Shown here piece after piece: positions 3-7,180 of a DNA stretch of 7,180 nucleotides. The DNA is taken from the NCBI GenBank assembly GCA_029933125.1, contig JAOZOU010000031.1, positions 1 through 7,180 on the forward strand, written 5' to 3'. Made by a program: the position numbers and the translations under genes. The notes under the pieces were generated by a model. It did no database searches. It saw only the letters and a program-made list of their open reading frames with translations, and had not been told where the DNA came from. The stretch comes from a bacterium (GTDB lineage Bacteria; Arandabacterota; Arandabacteria; Arandabacterales; Arandabacteraceae). Numbering within the stretch: position 1 is the stretch's first letter; each line of letters opens with the position of its first letter.

Positions 3-3000
3 AGTAGTGGTTATTATAGTGCTACTGTGGAATGTGGCTGGAGTGGACGAGTGACGCCAACCAAGGATTGCTACACATTCAGTCCAGGGGAGATCAGCTA
101 TGAATCTGTTGGCGAGTCCATGACCGAGGATTATGAGGGCGAGCTTCCGCGTCCTTCTGGGATAGAGGCATCAGACAATGTGTGTGGTCGGGTCGTGATC
201 AGCTGGGAATATCCGGAGTGCAATGGACCCGGTGGCTTCAGAATCGTGAGAGATGGCCTGGAAATATGTGACGTCGAACGTGGAGTTCGATCCTACACTG
301 ATACTGCTATGAGCTGCTGCAGTTTTCTCGTCTATTCAGTTGCTGCTTTTGATGGCACCTGCCAATCTGATACTGTAGCTGCTAAGGGGTTTGCTCCGTG
401 CGAACCGGTCCCGCCTGACGCATTTAGTGCGACCGCGGATCTGTGCGACAGAGTCCAGCTCACCTGGAATGCCGTGTCTACAGGTGCTTGCAATGCCGAC
501 AGCCTGATAATCCTTCGGGATGGGGCCTGGTTAGCAAGTCTCGCTCCCACGGTATCTGAGTATGACGACTTCACTGCTGATGTATGTGTCTCCCACGACT
601 ACTGTATTGCTTCAAAGAATGCCTGTGGTGTGTCAGCGCTGAGCTGTGCCGCTGGTCGTTTGGTTGCGAAACCTGAACCTCCGATGATCTGTGCTGCTAG
701 CGACAGCAATTGCAAGAGAGTACATGTGGCGTGGCAGTGCGAAGAAGACGAGGCTTGTCCTGTCGAAGGCTTTAATATCTATAGAGATGGTAGTCTGATT
801 GCCACCGTGGATGATCCTGAGCGAAGGTCCTATGACGACGAGTCCGTTGAGCTTGGTGCTGTCTATGCCTACTGTGTGAAGGCATTTAATAGTTGTGGAG
901 AAGACAGCGGTAGGTGCTGTGATCAAGGCTCAATGATGGTTGATACCATACCTCCAGCTTGTGTGGTCAGCTTCTCCCGGGATTTTACCAATGAGACCGG
1001 CGTTATGCTCGGTATCGCTGCTTTTGACGTGAGTGGTCTGAAGGGTATGAAGATTTGCGGGATCTGCGGTGATTGTGAATGGAAGGACCTTCAGGGAAGA
1101 AACTGTGTTGATACAACACTTTATTGTGAGTTGTCCGGCGGCGATGGTAAAAAGAGTGTCTACGTCTATTTTGAGGATGAATGTGGGAATCGGACTTCCT
1201 GTGGAGATACGGTGATTCTCGATACAAATCCACCTGATCTTGTGACGATAAACTATCCGCTCTCAGGAAAGTGGTATAGTCGAGAGATAACTCAGTACTG
1301 TGGGCAATCTGTGGATGGGCTTTCTGGTATAGACTGGGATGCCTTCGAGTACAGTTATGATGGTGACACGTGGGTGCATTTTGATGTCGATTCTGACTGC
1401 TGTGACAGCTGTGGATTTGAATGTGATTGGTGTGATGCGGATGATATTCCCAACACTTATGAATCCGACTGCAAATCCACCCTCCGAATACGTGTCGCAG
1501 ACATGGCTGGAAATGTGGCATTCTCGCCAATAGATACCATCTGTGTCGATTCGGGTGTGCAACGCGTGGAAAATCTCTCGTGCAGCCCACATGCTAAGCC
1601 CGACTCCTGCTATCAAGAAAGGGATGTAGAGATAAGTTGGAACGCTCCCTACGATGCTTCTGGGGTAGTTGGTTATAGCTATGCCTTGGCTCCGAGCTCT
1701 CCCTCGAGTCCAAGCGAAGTGGATTCGACGGTAGATCTGAAAACTGAGCATATATCGTTCAGCAATCTTGATGAGGATCTTTGGTATTTCAGCATACGAG
1801 CGATTGATGAGATCGGCAACTGTAGCGACACGGCACTGGTAAGGTTCTGCATCGATAGAACTCCACCAGTTCTCAAGGTTGACAAATCACATCGGCTCGC
1901 TGGCAAGGACACATGTGTTACACTAACCATAGAAGGGAATGAGTCACTGGGGAATGTTTTTGTCGAGGTGAATCAGGCTGGCACATGTGAACCCTTACAG
2001 GTGGGTATGACACCGGTTGACGCAACCAGGCAGATTTGGCGGGGCAGGTACTGCGTTCTTGCCGGTTGCGACGGGCCGGCACTCATTAGTGTAACTGGAA
2101 GCGACATTGCGGCTAACATAGCTGCCTGCAGTGATACGTTCTATGCTGATACATATCCCCCTGTGATCAGAGTAGAGATAGTGTCCGCAGGGAAATTTCC
2201 CGAGACCAGGGGGAAGTTGTCGGCGGGGAGTGTTGTCAAGAACATTCCGTCAGGCTGTGTGGAAGTTTCCATACATTCGGATGAAGCCCTCAGGGACTTA
2301 CCAAGGGTCTCTTACGTAGTGGATGGGGCTAATGGATGCCACTACGAGGACAGTCTCATCATAAAGCACCAGACGGAGACTAGTTTTACTGGTTCATTCT
2401 TCATTGAGTCAGATCAGTGTTGGGGCAATGCAAGTTTCAGAGCGGAGGGTGTTGATCTTGCAGGCAATGTCGGTGGCGAGGTCGCTGGTGAATCTGTCTT
2501 TGTTGTAGATCCGGTCATAGAACCGTCAGTTGGTGGCTGTGCCATCGCCTCCGATGGGACAGCTGTCCTTGTGGGTCCTGGCTGTCTTTCCCAACCGTGC
2601 GTCATAAGTATTTCCGCTGGTGACCTAGGAAGTGACTCATTGTCAGCCGCAATAGATGCACTCCAGAAACGGGGTCAGGTCAAGTGCATATGTGGTCCAG
2701 ATCACAACAGTATCAGAGTAATATCGCAACATCCAGCTTCCGGCGTGATGACAACGAACGCGCCTGTGAGGTGGGCTGCTGCATGGCTGTACATTCCATA
2801 TTCCAAGGATGAGCAGGGAGATGTTGGAGGGGCGGAAGGTGTCTATGAGGGAGACCTTCGGGTCTTTAAGCTAGTCCGATCGAGTGACGATCAACAGCAA
2901 TCTTGGGATTGGAGATTGATTGACCCGAACGATTGCGTTGTACTGGCTGATAGCCTTCTTGTCAAGCAGCGGATAGACGGTCCCGGGACATACATGCTCG

Positions 3001-3320
3001 GCGGCTACCAACCTGTGGTGGATCTTGAGAGGGTTGTTGTCTATCCCAATCCGTTTAGGCCTTCGCGTGACGGGATTCTATCAATTCGGAACATCCCTAT
3101 CGATCCGACTGCTAATGTCAAGATTTACGATGTGGCTGGGGAGATTGTGCGTGTGCTCAAGGTAGGAAGCGGTGTCCAAGAGGTGTCAGGTGAGGGATCG
3201 ATGGAGGCAATGTGGGATGCAAAGGATGCTAATGGGAACATGGTTTCCCACGGGGCTTACATTATTGTAATTGAGACCAGACGGGGTGTAAGGAAAGGGA
3301 AGATCGCTGTAATCAGATGA
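3..3320 (+). CDS. Secreted cysteine-rich FN3/Ig-like repeat protein with T9SS-type C-terminal sorting domain (5' end outside window)
   Basis: The frame is open from base 3, so the protein begins upstream; the GTG at 27 is only the first start-like codon inside the window, and residues are numbered from it. Three fibronectin-III-like repeats lie at about 41-127, 128-217 and 218-303. Each has a C-x-R-V strand followed by a Trp (CGRV, CDRV, CKRV) and an RDG turn. A fourth FN3-like unit, with strand VEISWNAP, starts near 520. Four Ig-like units are introduced by D-x-x-PP motifs (DTIPP, DTNPP, DRTPP, DTYPP). The last ~95 residues carry YPNPF at 1006-1010, then VKIYDVAGEIV, then GAYIIVIETRRG, which is the FlgD-Ig-like/type IX sorting domain. 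By family knowledge such proteins are exported by Sec and then T9SS and kept at or beyond the cell surface. No catalytic domain is visible, so an adhesive or structural role is only a guess; an enzyme domain could lie in the missing N-terminus. Its stop is 15 bases before the PorV gene. Confidence 0.9.
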   Translation, partial: SSGYYSATVECGWSGRVTPTKDCYTFSPGEISYESVGESMTEDYEGELPRPSGIEASDNVCGRVVISWEYPECNGPGGFRIVRDGLEICDVERGVRSYTDTAMSCCSFLVYSVAAFDGTCQSDTVAAKGFAPCEPVPPDAFSATADLCDRVQLTWNAVSTGACNADSLIILRDGAWLASLAPTVSEYDDFTADVCVSHDYCIASKNACGVSALSCAAGRLVAKPEPPMICAASDSNCKRVHVAWQCEEDEACPVEGFNIYRDGSLIATVDDPERRSYDDESVELGAVYAYCVKAFNSCGEDSGRCCDQGSMMVDTIPPACVVSFSRDFTNETGVMLGIAAFDVSGLKGMKICGICGDCEWKDLQGRNCVDTTLYCELSGGDGKKSVYVYFEDECGNRTSCGDTVILDTNPPDLVTINYPLSGKWYSREITQYCGQSVDGLSGIDWDAFEYSYDGDTWVHFDVDSDCCDSCGFECDWCDADDIPNTYESDCKSTLRIRVADMAGNVAFSPIDTICVDSGVQRVENLSCSPHAKPDSCYQERDVEISWNAPYDASGVVGYSYALAPSSPSSPSEVDSTVDLKTEHISFSNLDEDLWYFSIRAIDEIGNCSDTALVRFCIDRTPPVLKVDKSHRLAGKDTCVTLTIEGNESLGNVFVEVNQAGTCEPLQVGMTPVDATRQIWRGRYCVLAGCDGPALISVTGSDIAANIAACSDTFYADTYPPVIRVEIVSAGKFPETRGKLSAGSVVKNIPSGCVEVSIHSDEALRDLPRVSYVVDGANGCHYEDSLIIKHQTETSFTGSFFIESDQCWGNASFRAEGVDLAGNVGGEVAGESVFVVDPVIEPSVGGCAIASDGTAVLVGPGCLSQPCVISISAGDLGSDSLSAAIDALQKRGQVKCICGPDHNSIRVISQHPASGVMTTNAPVRWAAAWLYIPYSKDEQGDVGGAEGVYEGDLRVFKLVRSSDDQQQSWDWRLIDPNDCVVLADSLLVKQRIDGPGTYMLGGYQPVVDLERVVVYPNPFRPSRDGILSIRNIPIDPTANVKIYDVAGEIVRVLKVGSGVQEVSGEGSMEAMWDAKDANGNMVSHGAYIIVIETRRGVRKGKIAVIR

Positions 3321-3323
3321 GGC

Positions 3324-3330
3324 AAGGAGG
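3324..3330 (+). promoter_or_regulatory. Shine-Dalgarno site of the PorV/PorQ gene
   Basis: AAGGAGG lies five bases before the ATG at 3336, in the 15-base gap after the upstream stop codon. It fixes the start of the second gene. The gap has no room for a promoter or terminator, so the two genes are probably co-transcribed. Confidence 0.85.
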
Positions 3331-3335
3331 AAGCC

Positions 3336-4271
3336 ATGGAGACACGGGCATTGACCAATCTCCGTGATGGGTTGATCATCCTTTTGGTAATGGCTGCAGG
3401 CTCTTTCGCTGATGGTGGTAGAACCGCTGCTAGTTTCCTAAATATACCCGTTGGAGCACGTGCTACTGGCATGGGGGGGGCTTTTGTGGCTGTGAGTGAC
3501 GATGCCACAGCCTGCTACTGGAACCCTGCTGGGCTTGCTACTTTAGAAGGGAGCACGGCAAGTTTTGTGCACAATACTTGGATAGTTGATACAAACTGTG
3601 AGTTCGCATGTTTCACGGCTAGGCTCAACCCTTCGACTGCGATAGGTGTTTCTACCACGGGTTTGATCTATGGGTCGATGGCTAGGCAGTCAGAGCCCGA
3701 TGAATCTGGCAGCGGTAGCTTCACTGCAAACGACGTAGCCATAAGTCTATCGGTCGCTAGAAAGATGATGCCGTCGCTTGCCTTGGGAGGGACGGTGAAG
3801 GCAGTGTTGCGCGCGATAGAGGATGAGCGAAGCAGGGGGCTTTGCTTCGACCTTGGCCTTCTGTGGCGCAGACAGGATGATCCAGGTATTTCTGCCGGTG
3901 TAACAATAAGGAATGTTGGCCCAGGTATGTCCCTGGTTGATGCCAAGGCTCCATTGCCTGTGACTGCGTCAATTGGCCTGTCTTGGGTGAAGACTTGGTC
4001 ACATTGCGATCTGATTGTCTCCGGCGACATAGAGCTGCCCAGATATGAGAGCAATAAGGTGCGTTTTGGCTGCGAGGTCAGTTATGGGCTGGCGGCGTTA
4101 CGCGTTGGCTACAGGCGTGTTCTCAGCGACTATGCTGATGATGAGGCGCTGACTGGTCCCACTTTCGGAATTGGAGTGACCTATCGGATGGTAGGCTTCA
4201 ATATCTCCCATGCGTCGCTTGGAGGCCCTCTCGGTTCGACCACCTCTGCAGGTGTCTTCATAAGCTTGTAG
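3336..4271 (+). CDS. PorV/PorQ family outer-membrane beta-barrel protein
   Basis: This 311-residue protein has a usual length for the family. An N-terminal signal peptide is visible: a charged start, a hydrophobic stretch (GLIILLVMAAG) and a likely cleavage after GSFA near residue 25. Next comes the family signature: FLNIPVGARATGMGGAF at about 33-49, then DDATACYWNPAGLA at 55-68. The rest alternates polar and hydrophobic residues, as in a beta barrel, and ends in FISL. Known PorV proteins sit in the outer membrane, bind the C-terminal domain of T9SS cargo and carry it from the translocon to the attachment complex; PorQ belongs to the same fold group. I cannot tell PorV from PorQ by eye, so no symbol is given. 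The gene follows a protein with a matching sorting domain, which suggests they act as a pair. A run of eight G bases encodes part of the GMGGAF motif. Confidence 0.9.
   Translation: METRALTNLRDGLIILLVMAAGSFADGGRTAASFLNIPVGARATGMGGAFVAVSDDATACYWNPAGLATLEGSTASFVHNTWIVDTNCEFACFTARLNPSTAIGVSTTGLIYGSMARQSEPDESGSGSFTANDVAISLSVARKMMPSLALGGTVKAVLRAIEDERSRGLCFDLGLLWRRQDDPGISAGVTIRNVGPGMSLVDAKAPLPVTASIGLSWVKTWSHCDLIVSGDIELPRYESNKVRFGCEVSYGLAALRVGYRRVLSDYADDEALTGPTFGIGVTYRMVGFNISHASLGGPLGSTTSAGVFISL
3473..3480 (+). repeat. Homopolymer run of eight G inside the PorV/PorQ gene
   Basis: Eight consecutive G bases span the Met-Gly-Gly-Ala codons of the family's GMGGAF motif, about 140 bases into the gene. 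The reading frame is intact at this length. A one-base slip would truncate the protein near residue 50. Confidence 0.9.
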
Positions 4272-4504
4272 TGGAGAAGGAGAAGTTTGCCGCCGCGTGC
4301 CGACTGTGCTGGCTTGGTAACCCCGACTCGTTCAGATTGCTAGGGTTAGTGCCTCGGTATCCCTGCTGCGGTTGAAATGCCGTAGCTGAGGCTTTGTCAA
4401 GGAAGGTTGAACGGAGAGGATGTTACCTATTCCAATAGCTTGGGCTGAGTGGCTGGATTGTTGGCAACCACCTCAATTGTGGAAACGCGAGAGTCATTTG
4501 AGAA

Positions 4505-4604
4505 CATGTGCATGCTAGTGTCGGTTACTGTTTTGCGCCTGGCCCTTCTGTTGCGGGGAACCACGCGTATAAGAGGCGACTCAATAGAAGGTCGCATGCA
4601 CGTG
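4505..4604 (+). repeat. Nested inverted repeat (two long stems)
   Basis: CATGTGCATGC at 4505-4515 pairs over 11 bases with GCATGCACGTG at 4594-4604, with one G-U pair. Inside it, CCTTCTGTTG at 4544-4553 pairs over 10 bases with CAATAGAAGG at 4582-4591, again with one G-U pair. The two stems are only two bases apart on the 3' side, so they could stack. The 28-base apical loop is unpaired in this reading. The strand is uncertain; plus was chosen because every gene here lies on it. No T run follows, so it is not a standard terminator. Confidence 0.55.
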
Positions 4605-4734
4605 ATAAGACAGGCTCTTTTTACATTGTCACCGCCATAAAGTCTTGGGCAGTAGCCGTCCTACTGAGCATCGCGTATCTTCAAGGGATTGTTTCTCATA
4701 GGCGTGTTCTGGCTCGCCCTTTCGCGAACTCGCC

Positions 4735-4759
4735 GAACCGGCATTTGGTGGTACGGTTC
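4735..4759 (+). repeat. Short hairpin next to the 13-bp inverted repeat
   Basis: GAACCG at 4735-4740 pairs perfectly with CGGTTC at 4754-4759 around a 13-base loop. Alone it is no better than chance. It is listed because its right arm meets the left arm of the 13-bp inverted repeat, sharing base 4759, so the two could form one stacked structure or compete. Confidence 0.3.
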
Positions 4760-4836
4760 TCAAGGAGCCTACTTCGCTGAAAGCATACTCTGGCCAGCAC
4801 CGGCCTTGTCTAGCCTGAGATCTTAGGCTCCTTGAG
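4759..4836. repeat. Perfect 13-bp inverted repeat, 52-base spacer
   Basis: CTCAAGGAGCCTA at 4759-4771 is the exact reverse complement of TAGGCTCCTTGAG at 4824-4836. The spacer can form GGCC/GGCC and AGCCT/AGGCT (4812-4816 with 4825-4829) hairpins. The second uses bases of the right arm, so the long and short forms exclude each other. No T run follows. It could be a recombination or protein-binding site, an RNA structure, or a remnant; the sequence does not decide. Confidence 0.7.
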
Positions 4837-5024
4837 CTTGCTCGGGAGGATCTGGCTATGAAGATCGGCCGCTGAGAGGCCAGCTGAGCTTGATCACGGG
4901 CGCCAGTGGAATCGTCATGCGTTTGGCCCCAGGATATTCGGAGCTACACCCAGTCTGGGTATGGCAGGCAAACGGCGTAGGTTGGTCCCATAGTCACCGC
5001 TGCGTGGCATTGGTACCCGCTGCA

Positions 5025-5099
5025 TGACAATCTGTCTGATGGCTCATGGAGGGCAACGTGTTATAGGTTGTGCGGCAACCGCAGCTGCCGAGATTGTCA
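5025..5099. repeat. 9-bp inverted repeat enclosing alternative hairpins
   Basis: TGACAATCT at 5025-5033 pairs perfectly with AGATTGTCA at 5091-5099. Inside, GGTTG-TGCGG-CAACC (5066-5080) forms a hairpin that competes with TGCGG-CAA-CCGCA (5071-5083). An 11-base direct repeat, CTGATGGCTCA, occurs at 5036-5046 and again near 5108-5118. A 9-bp pairing at this distance is near chance level in 2.9 kb, so support is modest. Confidence 0.35.
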
Positions 5100-5241
5100 A
5101 ACTATCACTGATGGCTCAGGCACAAGATAGGCGGTAACACAAATGATTAGAGTGGCGGGCAGAGCCCTGGGAAAGATATTGGGGAGGCACTCTGAGGGCT
5201 GATCTCTCTGATTCCCATGAAAGGGCTAGCATGCCGGATGA

Positions 5242-6208
5242 TTGTTCTTGGAGGATGTTACAGATCAGGAAAGAGGGTCTGTTGATGAGTTGTGGTATGC
5301 TGTGGGTGTTGGATTCGAGATGAACCGTGTGGTCTGCGGATCTGTTGCATTCTCGATTCATGCCTCTAATGTGTTCCCGGAGACCCTTGGTCATGATCCG
5401 AATATCGACGAAGGGCTTTGCAAGAATACGCTGCCACAACTTCGTTGACCTCACCGCGGAAGACAGAGATGCCGATTACCCGATGACGCACATCACAGCC
5501 AGACCCGGGGATAGTCTGTGATGGCAAGAGAGATACCAGTCCGCTTGAACCACTATCGCGCCAACAATGGACGCCTTTATGGACGTTTGCACAATATCCA
5601 CACCATCCGCGGCAGTGACGATCCAAATGACGAGTATTTGACCCGAGGGGCCATACCGAAAGGTCCGCCAGTCGCATTGTCCAACGATGTTGGAATATCC
5701 ACGGATGCAGGCCCCGAGGCAGATGCATCGATCTGTAACCGTTCCTACGCTCACCATGGTAGTCCTATGATAATCACCCAGAATCCTCCTGGTGCAGATC
5801 TATCGAGTAGAAGAGGTTTCATGTTTACCCCGCAGATGACTATGGCTCTCCTGGCGCCTGCTTCGCCACAATAGCTGTTGTTGAAGATGCCTTTAGGAAC
5901 GGATACCGGTCTTGCTGAGGGAATTGGGCTCAGGTTTCCCACGGTCTTGGCCATCTGCTATACGAACTTCCAACGGGCTTCGCCGTGACGCACAATTCTA
6001 GCCACCCCAGTGGGTCACGACGTCCCCACCCATCCCTCATACCGGGAACCGAATCCTTCATTGGGAGTGGCAGCCTTTGACATAATACCCCCCAGGGCGA
6101 CGCATGCGAGCTAGGAGCTTCTAAACCGGTTGGGTTTGGTGAGTTTCTTTTCAAGATGGAGGATGGCAGGGTTTTCCAGTAATGCGCGGACCAGCTCTGG
6201 AGCTGTAG
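5242..6208 (+). pseudogene. Decayed gene for a secreted Ig-repeat protein with T9SS-type C-terminal domain
   Basis: Read across frames, the plus strand gives recognisable domain pieces in the right order. In the frame of 5441, LTAEDRDADYP and ITARPGDSL match the cadherin-like pattern T-A-x-D-x-D-x-D-P-x-T-y-x-I-T-x-x-P-G-s. In the frame of 5521, PPVALSNDVGISTDAG, ADASICNRSY and ITQNPPGAD match HYR-like repeats. That repeat's end, DDYGSPGACFATIAVVED, continues in a different frame at about 5832-5885. In the same frame, after TGA at 5916, LPTGFAVTHNSSHPSGS (5967-6017) resembles the LPTGFAVxQNYPNPFNP opening of the sorting domain. VAAFDII (6067-6087, another frame) resembles its VxVFDIxGR strand, and GFGEFLFKMEDGRVFQ (6132-6179) its SGVYFFKMEAGxFVQ end. 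TAA at 6180 and a last frame change lead to TAG at 6206. At least four frame changes and two internal stops make an active protein unlikely. The piece 5242-5440 is included because it adjoins, without a domain match. Confidence 0.65.
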
Positions 6209-6352
6209 AGGACGCGATGGAGTGTCCACTCCGACTACCTTGAAAGTTTGGAGAGCCCTCACATTGAACATGCGGTGTGATTGGCTCGGTGGTTGGCCCG
6301 AGTCTAATGCGACTGCTGCAAACTCAAAATGATTAGAAGAACCACGCTTCTC

Positions 6353-6361
6353 AGGAAGGGG
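6353..6361 (+). promoter_or_regulatory. Shine-Dalgarno-like site before the short frame at 6368
   Basis: AGGAAGGGG ends six bases before the ATG at 6368 and touches the in-frame ATG at 6362, which would be too close. It therefore favours 6368 as the start of a frame with a signal-peptide-like beginning. Confidence 0.45.
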
Positions 6362-6367
6362 ATGGAC

Positions 6368-6535
6368 ATGATACCAGCGATCGCTCACCATAGGCTTTGC
6401 CTCGTTGTGTTGCTGAGCATCCTGCTAGTTGAGCTCTACCCCAGCAGTATTTCCGAACACTCCAGTGCCTCCTTGGGCACCGCATATGCAGGATGTGTTC
6501 AGGAACTTCATTTCGGCGGCACAATCCGATGATTG
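6368..6535 (+). pseudogene. Start of a secreted or membrane protein, probably truncated
   Basis: This short frame of about 55 residues opens with MIPAIAHHR, then a hydrophobic core, LCLVVLLSILLVEL, then YPSSIS, a typical signal peptide or membrane anchor. It has a good ribosome binding site and lies about 160 bases after the end of the decayed cargo gene. After GTAYAGCVQELHF it ends without a recognisable domain. Around 6490-6560 another frame (DVFRNFISAAQSDDWTGES) looks as protein-like, so a frameshift is possible. It could be a broken secreted-protein gene or a small exported protein; I do not recognise a family. The bases from 6536 to 6661 hold nothing I can name. Confidence 0.35.
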
Positions 6536-6661
6536 GACAGGCGAAAGTATACCCGATGGAACTATCTCTGCGTAGTCGTCAATGACGATTATTGACATTG
6601 CCAATTCACTGGCTCATCGTGTTTTCTCTCTGCCCACGCTGGTTTTCACCATTGATAGTGC

Positions 6662-7180
6662 ATGCTACTACTGTCACTCTGCGTCGATCCCAGTTCTCGA
6701 GGGAACCCAGCTCCCAGGGCTGATTCTTGCTCCGCATGCGCAGTGTGGGCGGTGTGTAAGCCGGCTCCCATCTCGGGTGCCGTCGGTAGATGGTACACAA
6801 GCCCTCCGGCGCGGATGGTACTGCCAGGGCGTGGGGTGGGAGCCTACGACGCCGCCGCACTTTTGTATTTGAGCAGTGGTCATGCTAGAGTGTGCGACCC
6901 CACTTACAGTTGCCACCGTCTGTTCACAGCGGAAGATCCCCAGGGCGTGATACTGTCAACCTGCGGTTGCTTTGCGGCCAGGTACACTCGGCCCAGGCCA
7001 AGCGGGTGGATACTTGGGGGATTTGCTTGCCCTTATGGCAGGCGTCTACACACCGGGGGCGGGAAAACGGTGCTCCATTGCGTGCTCGCTGCTCATTTCG
7101 ATTCCTTTCTCACCCTATGGAGCCCATTCGAGCCTTGCTCCGGAGGCAGATGATGCGTCTATTCTTTTAAGAAGCAAGCC
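6662..7180 (+). pseudogene. Probable decayed PorV/PorQ-family gene
   Basis: A 163-residue frame starts at 6662 and ends at 7153; some PorV-like features may lie in other frames beyond. Its residues 61-76 read YDAAALLYLSSGHARV. They align without gaps to the family signature D-A-x-A-L-Y-W-N-P-A-G-L-A-R-V, though the WNP core is lost. The motif sits near residues 69-73, almost where the intact upstream gene has WNPAG (62-66). Downstream, PTYSCHRLFTAED recalls the intact protein's STASFVHNTWIVDT, and GCFAAR recalls ACFTAR. No good ribosome binding site precedes 6662 and the expected GARAxGMGGA stretch is garbled (VLPGRGVGAY). The intact family is about 300 residues, so this frame is short. These are eye alignments to weakly conserved residues, so chance similarity remains possible. 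Confidence 0.35.

Follow-up and report, generated by a model that had tools for sequence, protein, structure and literature searches.

Positions 4622–5888 of the stretch analyzed here very probably represent a pseudogene, the 5′ remnant of a gene that arose as a lineage-specific duplicate of one for a secreted cysteine peptidase of family C10 and has since lost its 3′ part. This reading comes from sequence comparison with an intact sister gene, which we call C84 after its contig, elsewhere in the same genome. The window, by which we mean the whole 7,180-base contig (C38), belongs to a genome of 3.23 Mb in 176 contigs.

Results

Two intact genes occupy positions 3–4271 of the window, both with unbroken frames in the ORF listing. 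ORF and Pfam analysis assigns the first to a 1,105-residue protein that is truncated by the contig start and ends in a FlgD-like/sorting-type domain, and the second to a PorV/UPF0164-like protein, with which a scan of genome contigs gave no match. From 4272 to the contig end, the ORF listing holds no gene-like ORF. Rfam matched nothing in the window, and Pfam, applied frame by frame to the forward strand of the relic region, gave nothing either, so single-frame scans miss the relic.

A preliminary description of the window had proposed that a gene remnant lies hidden across frames where no ORF spans the region, and had suggested a frameshift-tolerant search for collinear matches on one strand; the remnant across frames is real, and such a match was obtained. 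Translated forward frames of 4272–6368, with stops masked, found a single own-genome tblastn match outside the window, at C84:8536–9642 (E = 2e-22), inside a gene of 1,209 residues; the query behind this match was two frames joined, and later searches were made by single frames. We then used a purpose-written local protein-to-DNA alignment that permits frame changes and stops, with 4272–7180 as its target. The C84 protein scored 607, against 80 for the best of 40 dinucleotide shuffles and 57 for the reverse strand, and a second intact relative (G007:C187) scored 348 (maximum of 10 shuffles, 71). The homologous stretch is collinear with residues 43–487 of the sister protein, at 171 identical codons out of 405 (42%), and carries 15 frame changes and 4 in-frame stops over 1,267 bases; the 4,271 bases of the preceding intact genes contain none. 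The remnant had initially been placed at 5242–6208, and its actual span of about 4622–5888 starts roughly 600 bases earlier and ends roughly 320 bases earlier.

The sister gene (C84:8278–11907, 1,209 residues) is intact and encodes a propeptide-like region, a C10 domain, HYR repeats, cohesins and a T9SS-type tail. Pfam recognizes Peptidase_C10 (E = 1e-51), HYR domains, cohesins and a FlgD/Por-type C-terminal sorting domain in its product, and the C10 domain matches interpain A (E = 2.6e-35). The named relatives found through this peptidase are uncultured bacteria, Candidatus Eisenbacteria bins included. Among the closest (58% identity) is L150, on DYHQ01000047.1, which is titled Candidatus Puniceispirillum; that organism label looks doubtful, as the record groups among those of Eisenbacteria and Zixibacteriota. 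In the own genome (G000), about 100 places match a profile of the T9SS-type sorting domain when the threshold is loose, and about 45 exceed the curated cut-off; judging from such matches, many of this lineage's genes seem to be given over to T9SS-type exported proteins.

Three parts of the sister are recognizable in the relic, in the same order and all on the forward strand. A remnant of the N-terminal propeptide-like region lies at 4622–4939 (residues 43–164 of C84; score 115 versus 43 for the best of 200 shuffles; identity at 43 of 104 codons). Upstream of 4622 no signal peptide is recognizable above chance, the alignment of 4272–4650 with residues 1–60 of C84 being at chance level; 4272–4650 has weak similarity with L140 only. 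The remnant of the Peptidase_C10 catalytic domain follows at 4981–5625 (residues 179–395; score 352 versus 61 for the best of 200 shuffles; identity at 88 of 203 codons). It takes in the stretch 5242–5448 that had been described as cadherin-like, which is an ORF with no Pfam match and aligns with the catalytic domain. The remnant of a single HYR domain, HYR1, split between frames, lies at 5647–5888 (residues 407–487; score 145 versus 49 for the best of 300 shuffles; identity at 34 of 78 codons), in agreement with the earlier suggestion that two HYR-like pieces adjoin in different frames.

The catalytic residues have fared unequally. We take the positions of the active-site Cys and His from the way in which the sister aligns with interpain A and streptopain and from what is generally known of family C10. 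On this assignment, the codon aligned with the Cys (5069–5071) still encodes Cys, whereas that aligned with the His (5505–5507) encodes Pro. Homology across the catalytic domain thus gives the relic Peptidase_C10 ancestry, but with the His codon changed to Pro and no open frame it would yield no working enzyme.

Substitution patterns point to relaxed constraint. Differences between the relic and C84 at first, second and third codon positions number 175, 132 and 236 of 405, compared with 110, 89 and 227 of 351 and with 129, 111 and 253 of 364 in two pairs of intact relatives. Positions 1 and 2 have thus changed more than in working pairs and position 3 less, a pattern expected for a younger duplicate released from constraint. 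In a tree of the C10 region, the relic is sister to C84 (support 0.974), a pairing that may be favored by the construction of the relic's row in C84 coordinates, and its branch is about sevenfold longer (1.38 versus 0.20). The stretch thereby combines homology to an intact gene in a broken frame with relaxed constraint in both codon positions and branch length, as befits a pseudogene, and its collinear homology with the sister's HYR1 identifies the HYR remnant.

No counterpart of the final 60% of the sister gene, its T9SS-type tail included, was found in the window. A decayed copy of all post-HYR1 sequence would be expected to score 454–626, and because nothing in the window comes near these values, a C84-like 3′ part is missing from here. 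Comparison of 5896–7180 with 513 ORFs from the loci examined gave no score above controls, and one frame of 5883–7180, compared with its own family, returned only the 5S copy described below. Pieces of a type IX sorting domain had been read by eye downstream of HYR1, and these do not rise above chance: in frameshift-tolerant alignment with 5889–6330, the C84 sorting domain scored 20 (shuffle mean, 28.6) and a profile of 29 own-genome sorting domains scored 23.1 (shuffle mean, 24.2), whereas the same profile scored 126 on the intact neighbor as a positive control; Pfam found no match in the supposed sorting-domain stretch. In only 55% of simulations does an equally decayed sorting domain clear the 5% threshold, which means that the negative result is not proof of absence. 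We dropped the by-eye reading after the profile tests and the recognition of a dispersed element at 5987–6036, in the middle of the supposed domain.

This worn, genus-specific element carries the core GGTCACCATGTCCCCACCC at 6013–6031 on the forward strand, with 2 mismatches, and matches intergenic DNA in the own genome and the sister genome. The core occurs at 17 own-genome places with up to 3 mismatches (reversed control, 0), of which the few inside ORFs look like chance. With up to 2 mismatches, a 21-base core is found 13 times in the own genome, 8 times in the genus's one other genome and 0 times in 11 further genomes. Copies with the core GGTCACCATGTCCCCACCCAT include L179, L181, L185, L187, L189, L191 and L194 in the own genome and L178, L180, L182 and L186 in G001. 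In most copies, a TTGACA-like box starts 23–24 bases past the core, a TATAAT-like box follows 17–18 bases on, and within about 80–360 bases there is a gene, whose product often begins with a signal-peptide-like sequence. The window copy has a weak promoter-like pair at the same distance from the element (6057–6086, forward strand: TTCATT at 6057–6062, an 18-base gap and CATAAT at 6081–6086); taken alone, these boxes are not better than about 6% of shuffles, and the argument is their shared spacing. We also considered a mobile-element end, and the fixed spacing of the promoter boxes better fits a regulatory element, making this a candidate operator of a secreted-protein regulon. About 300 bases past the element, a distance like that in other copies, a 67-codon ORF with a signal-peptide-like start (6329–6532, forward strand) could hypothetically be what is left of another dead gene for a secreted protein; a homologue search with this ORF was negative.

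Further downstream, 6799–6871 (forward strand) corresponds to the 3′ half of a 5S rRNA copy that has degenerated, with 84% identity over 73 columns to the intact gene at C28:21099–21215; its 5′ half is scrambled or lost, and Rfam does not recognize it. A reading of this stretch as a dockerin-like remnant (GAYDAAALLYLSSG) was rejected once it turned out to be 5S rRNA. The genome has two intact 5S genes (C69 and C28) and further degenerate or partial copies at C28:24430–24514 and C14:6552–6650 (L032 and L033). The window copy and the one at the C28 end have changed bases in common (GGGAGCC.ACGACGC versus GGGAGAGTAGGACGC), a hint that both descend from one degenerate ancestor. With a pseudogene, a worn element and a degenerate 5S copy, 4622–6871 gives the impression of a small sequence graveyard.

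Discussion

We envision that a gene for a secreted C10 peptidase was duplicated within this lineage, with C84 as the sister that stayed intact, and that the duplicate was inactivated, worn down by substitutions, stops and some 15 frame changes, and shortened by the 3′ 60% of its length. We infer that the 3′ part once existed here and was then deleted, and the ancestor may have been shorter. Export of the ancestor through the type IX system is likewise suggested by the sister copy only, because a sorting-domain remnant finds no support in the window. The preliminary description of a decayed T9SS cargo gene was therefore right about a secreted, HYR-bearing kind of protein; it missed the C10 main body, its cadherin label is mistaken, and its sorting remnant found no support.

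Several other explanations deserve weighing. Fragments picked by eye from six frames without statistics could be unrelated by descent, and the sorting-domain fragments do look like chance; for 4622–5888, a chance reading is already refuted by a score of 607 where no shuffle exceeded 80, and by three parts that each lie far above all shuffles, which leaves this explanation the least credible of all. A working gene decoded by programmed frameshifting, for which nothing speaks except that homology runs on across frames, has scarcely more credence, given a relic that changes frame about 15 times, contains 4 stops, shows relaxed codon positions and lacks both a catalytic residue and the 3′ part. 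It is also very unlikely that an intact C10 peptidase gene has been corrupted by errors at a poorly covered contig end: the contig is short, the assembly is of metagenome type (176 contigs) and the damage is confined to the 3′ part of the contig, but such errors would not explain why the amino acid differs from the sister at 58% of aligned codons, why codon positions are relaxed as under neutral change, why the catalytic His codon is altered, or why 60% of the gene is absent and the downstream 5S copy is likewise degenerate while both preceding genes are clean.

Retention of a sorting domain at about 5955–6200, fused to HYR1 through an internal deletion, is less far-fetched, since YELPTG, GTESF and FLFKMEDG can be read by eye in order in one frame and the power of the test is limited. 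We nevertheless consider it unlikely, given the scores below shuffle means for both the C84 domain and the profile, the negative Pfam scan and the dispersed non-coding element in its middle.

Taken as a decayed duplicate, the relic shares the order of propeptide-like region, C10 and HYR1 with its paralogue; C84 is intact, whereas the relic is frameshifted, interrupted by stops and devoid of all post-HYR1 sequence. Compared with the C10 peptidases interpain A and streptopain, it aligns over the sister's full catalytic domain and keeps the Cys codon, but it has Pro at the His codon, lacks an open frame and resides in an uncultured bacterium. Like other bacterial pseudogenes from decayed paralogues, it has an intact sister, stops, frame changes, relaxed codon positions and 3′ loss; it is not unusual among them, although more eroded than recent ones and beyond the reach of single-frame Pfam scans.

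Overall, a relic beyond ORF finders and Pfam could still be identified once it was set against a sister gene from its own genome. The case records a secreted C10 peptidase being duplicated and lost in an uncultured lineage whose relatives include Candidatus Eisenbacteria bins, and a literature search found nothing on such secreted C10 peptidase genes for the phyla concerned. The pseudogene biology is otherwise ordinary, and the promoter-linked element is the more useful lead: we tentatively suggest, at somewhat less than even confidence, that it may mark an undescribed secreted-protein regulon that once included a second, now dead, gene at this place.
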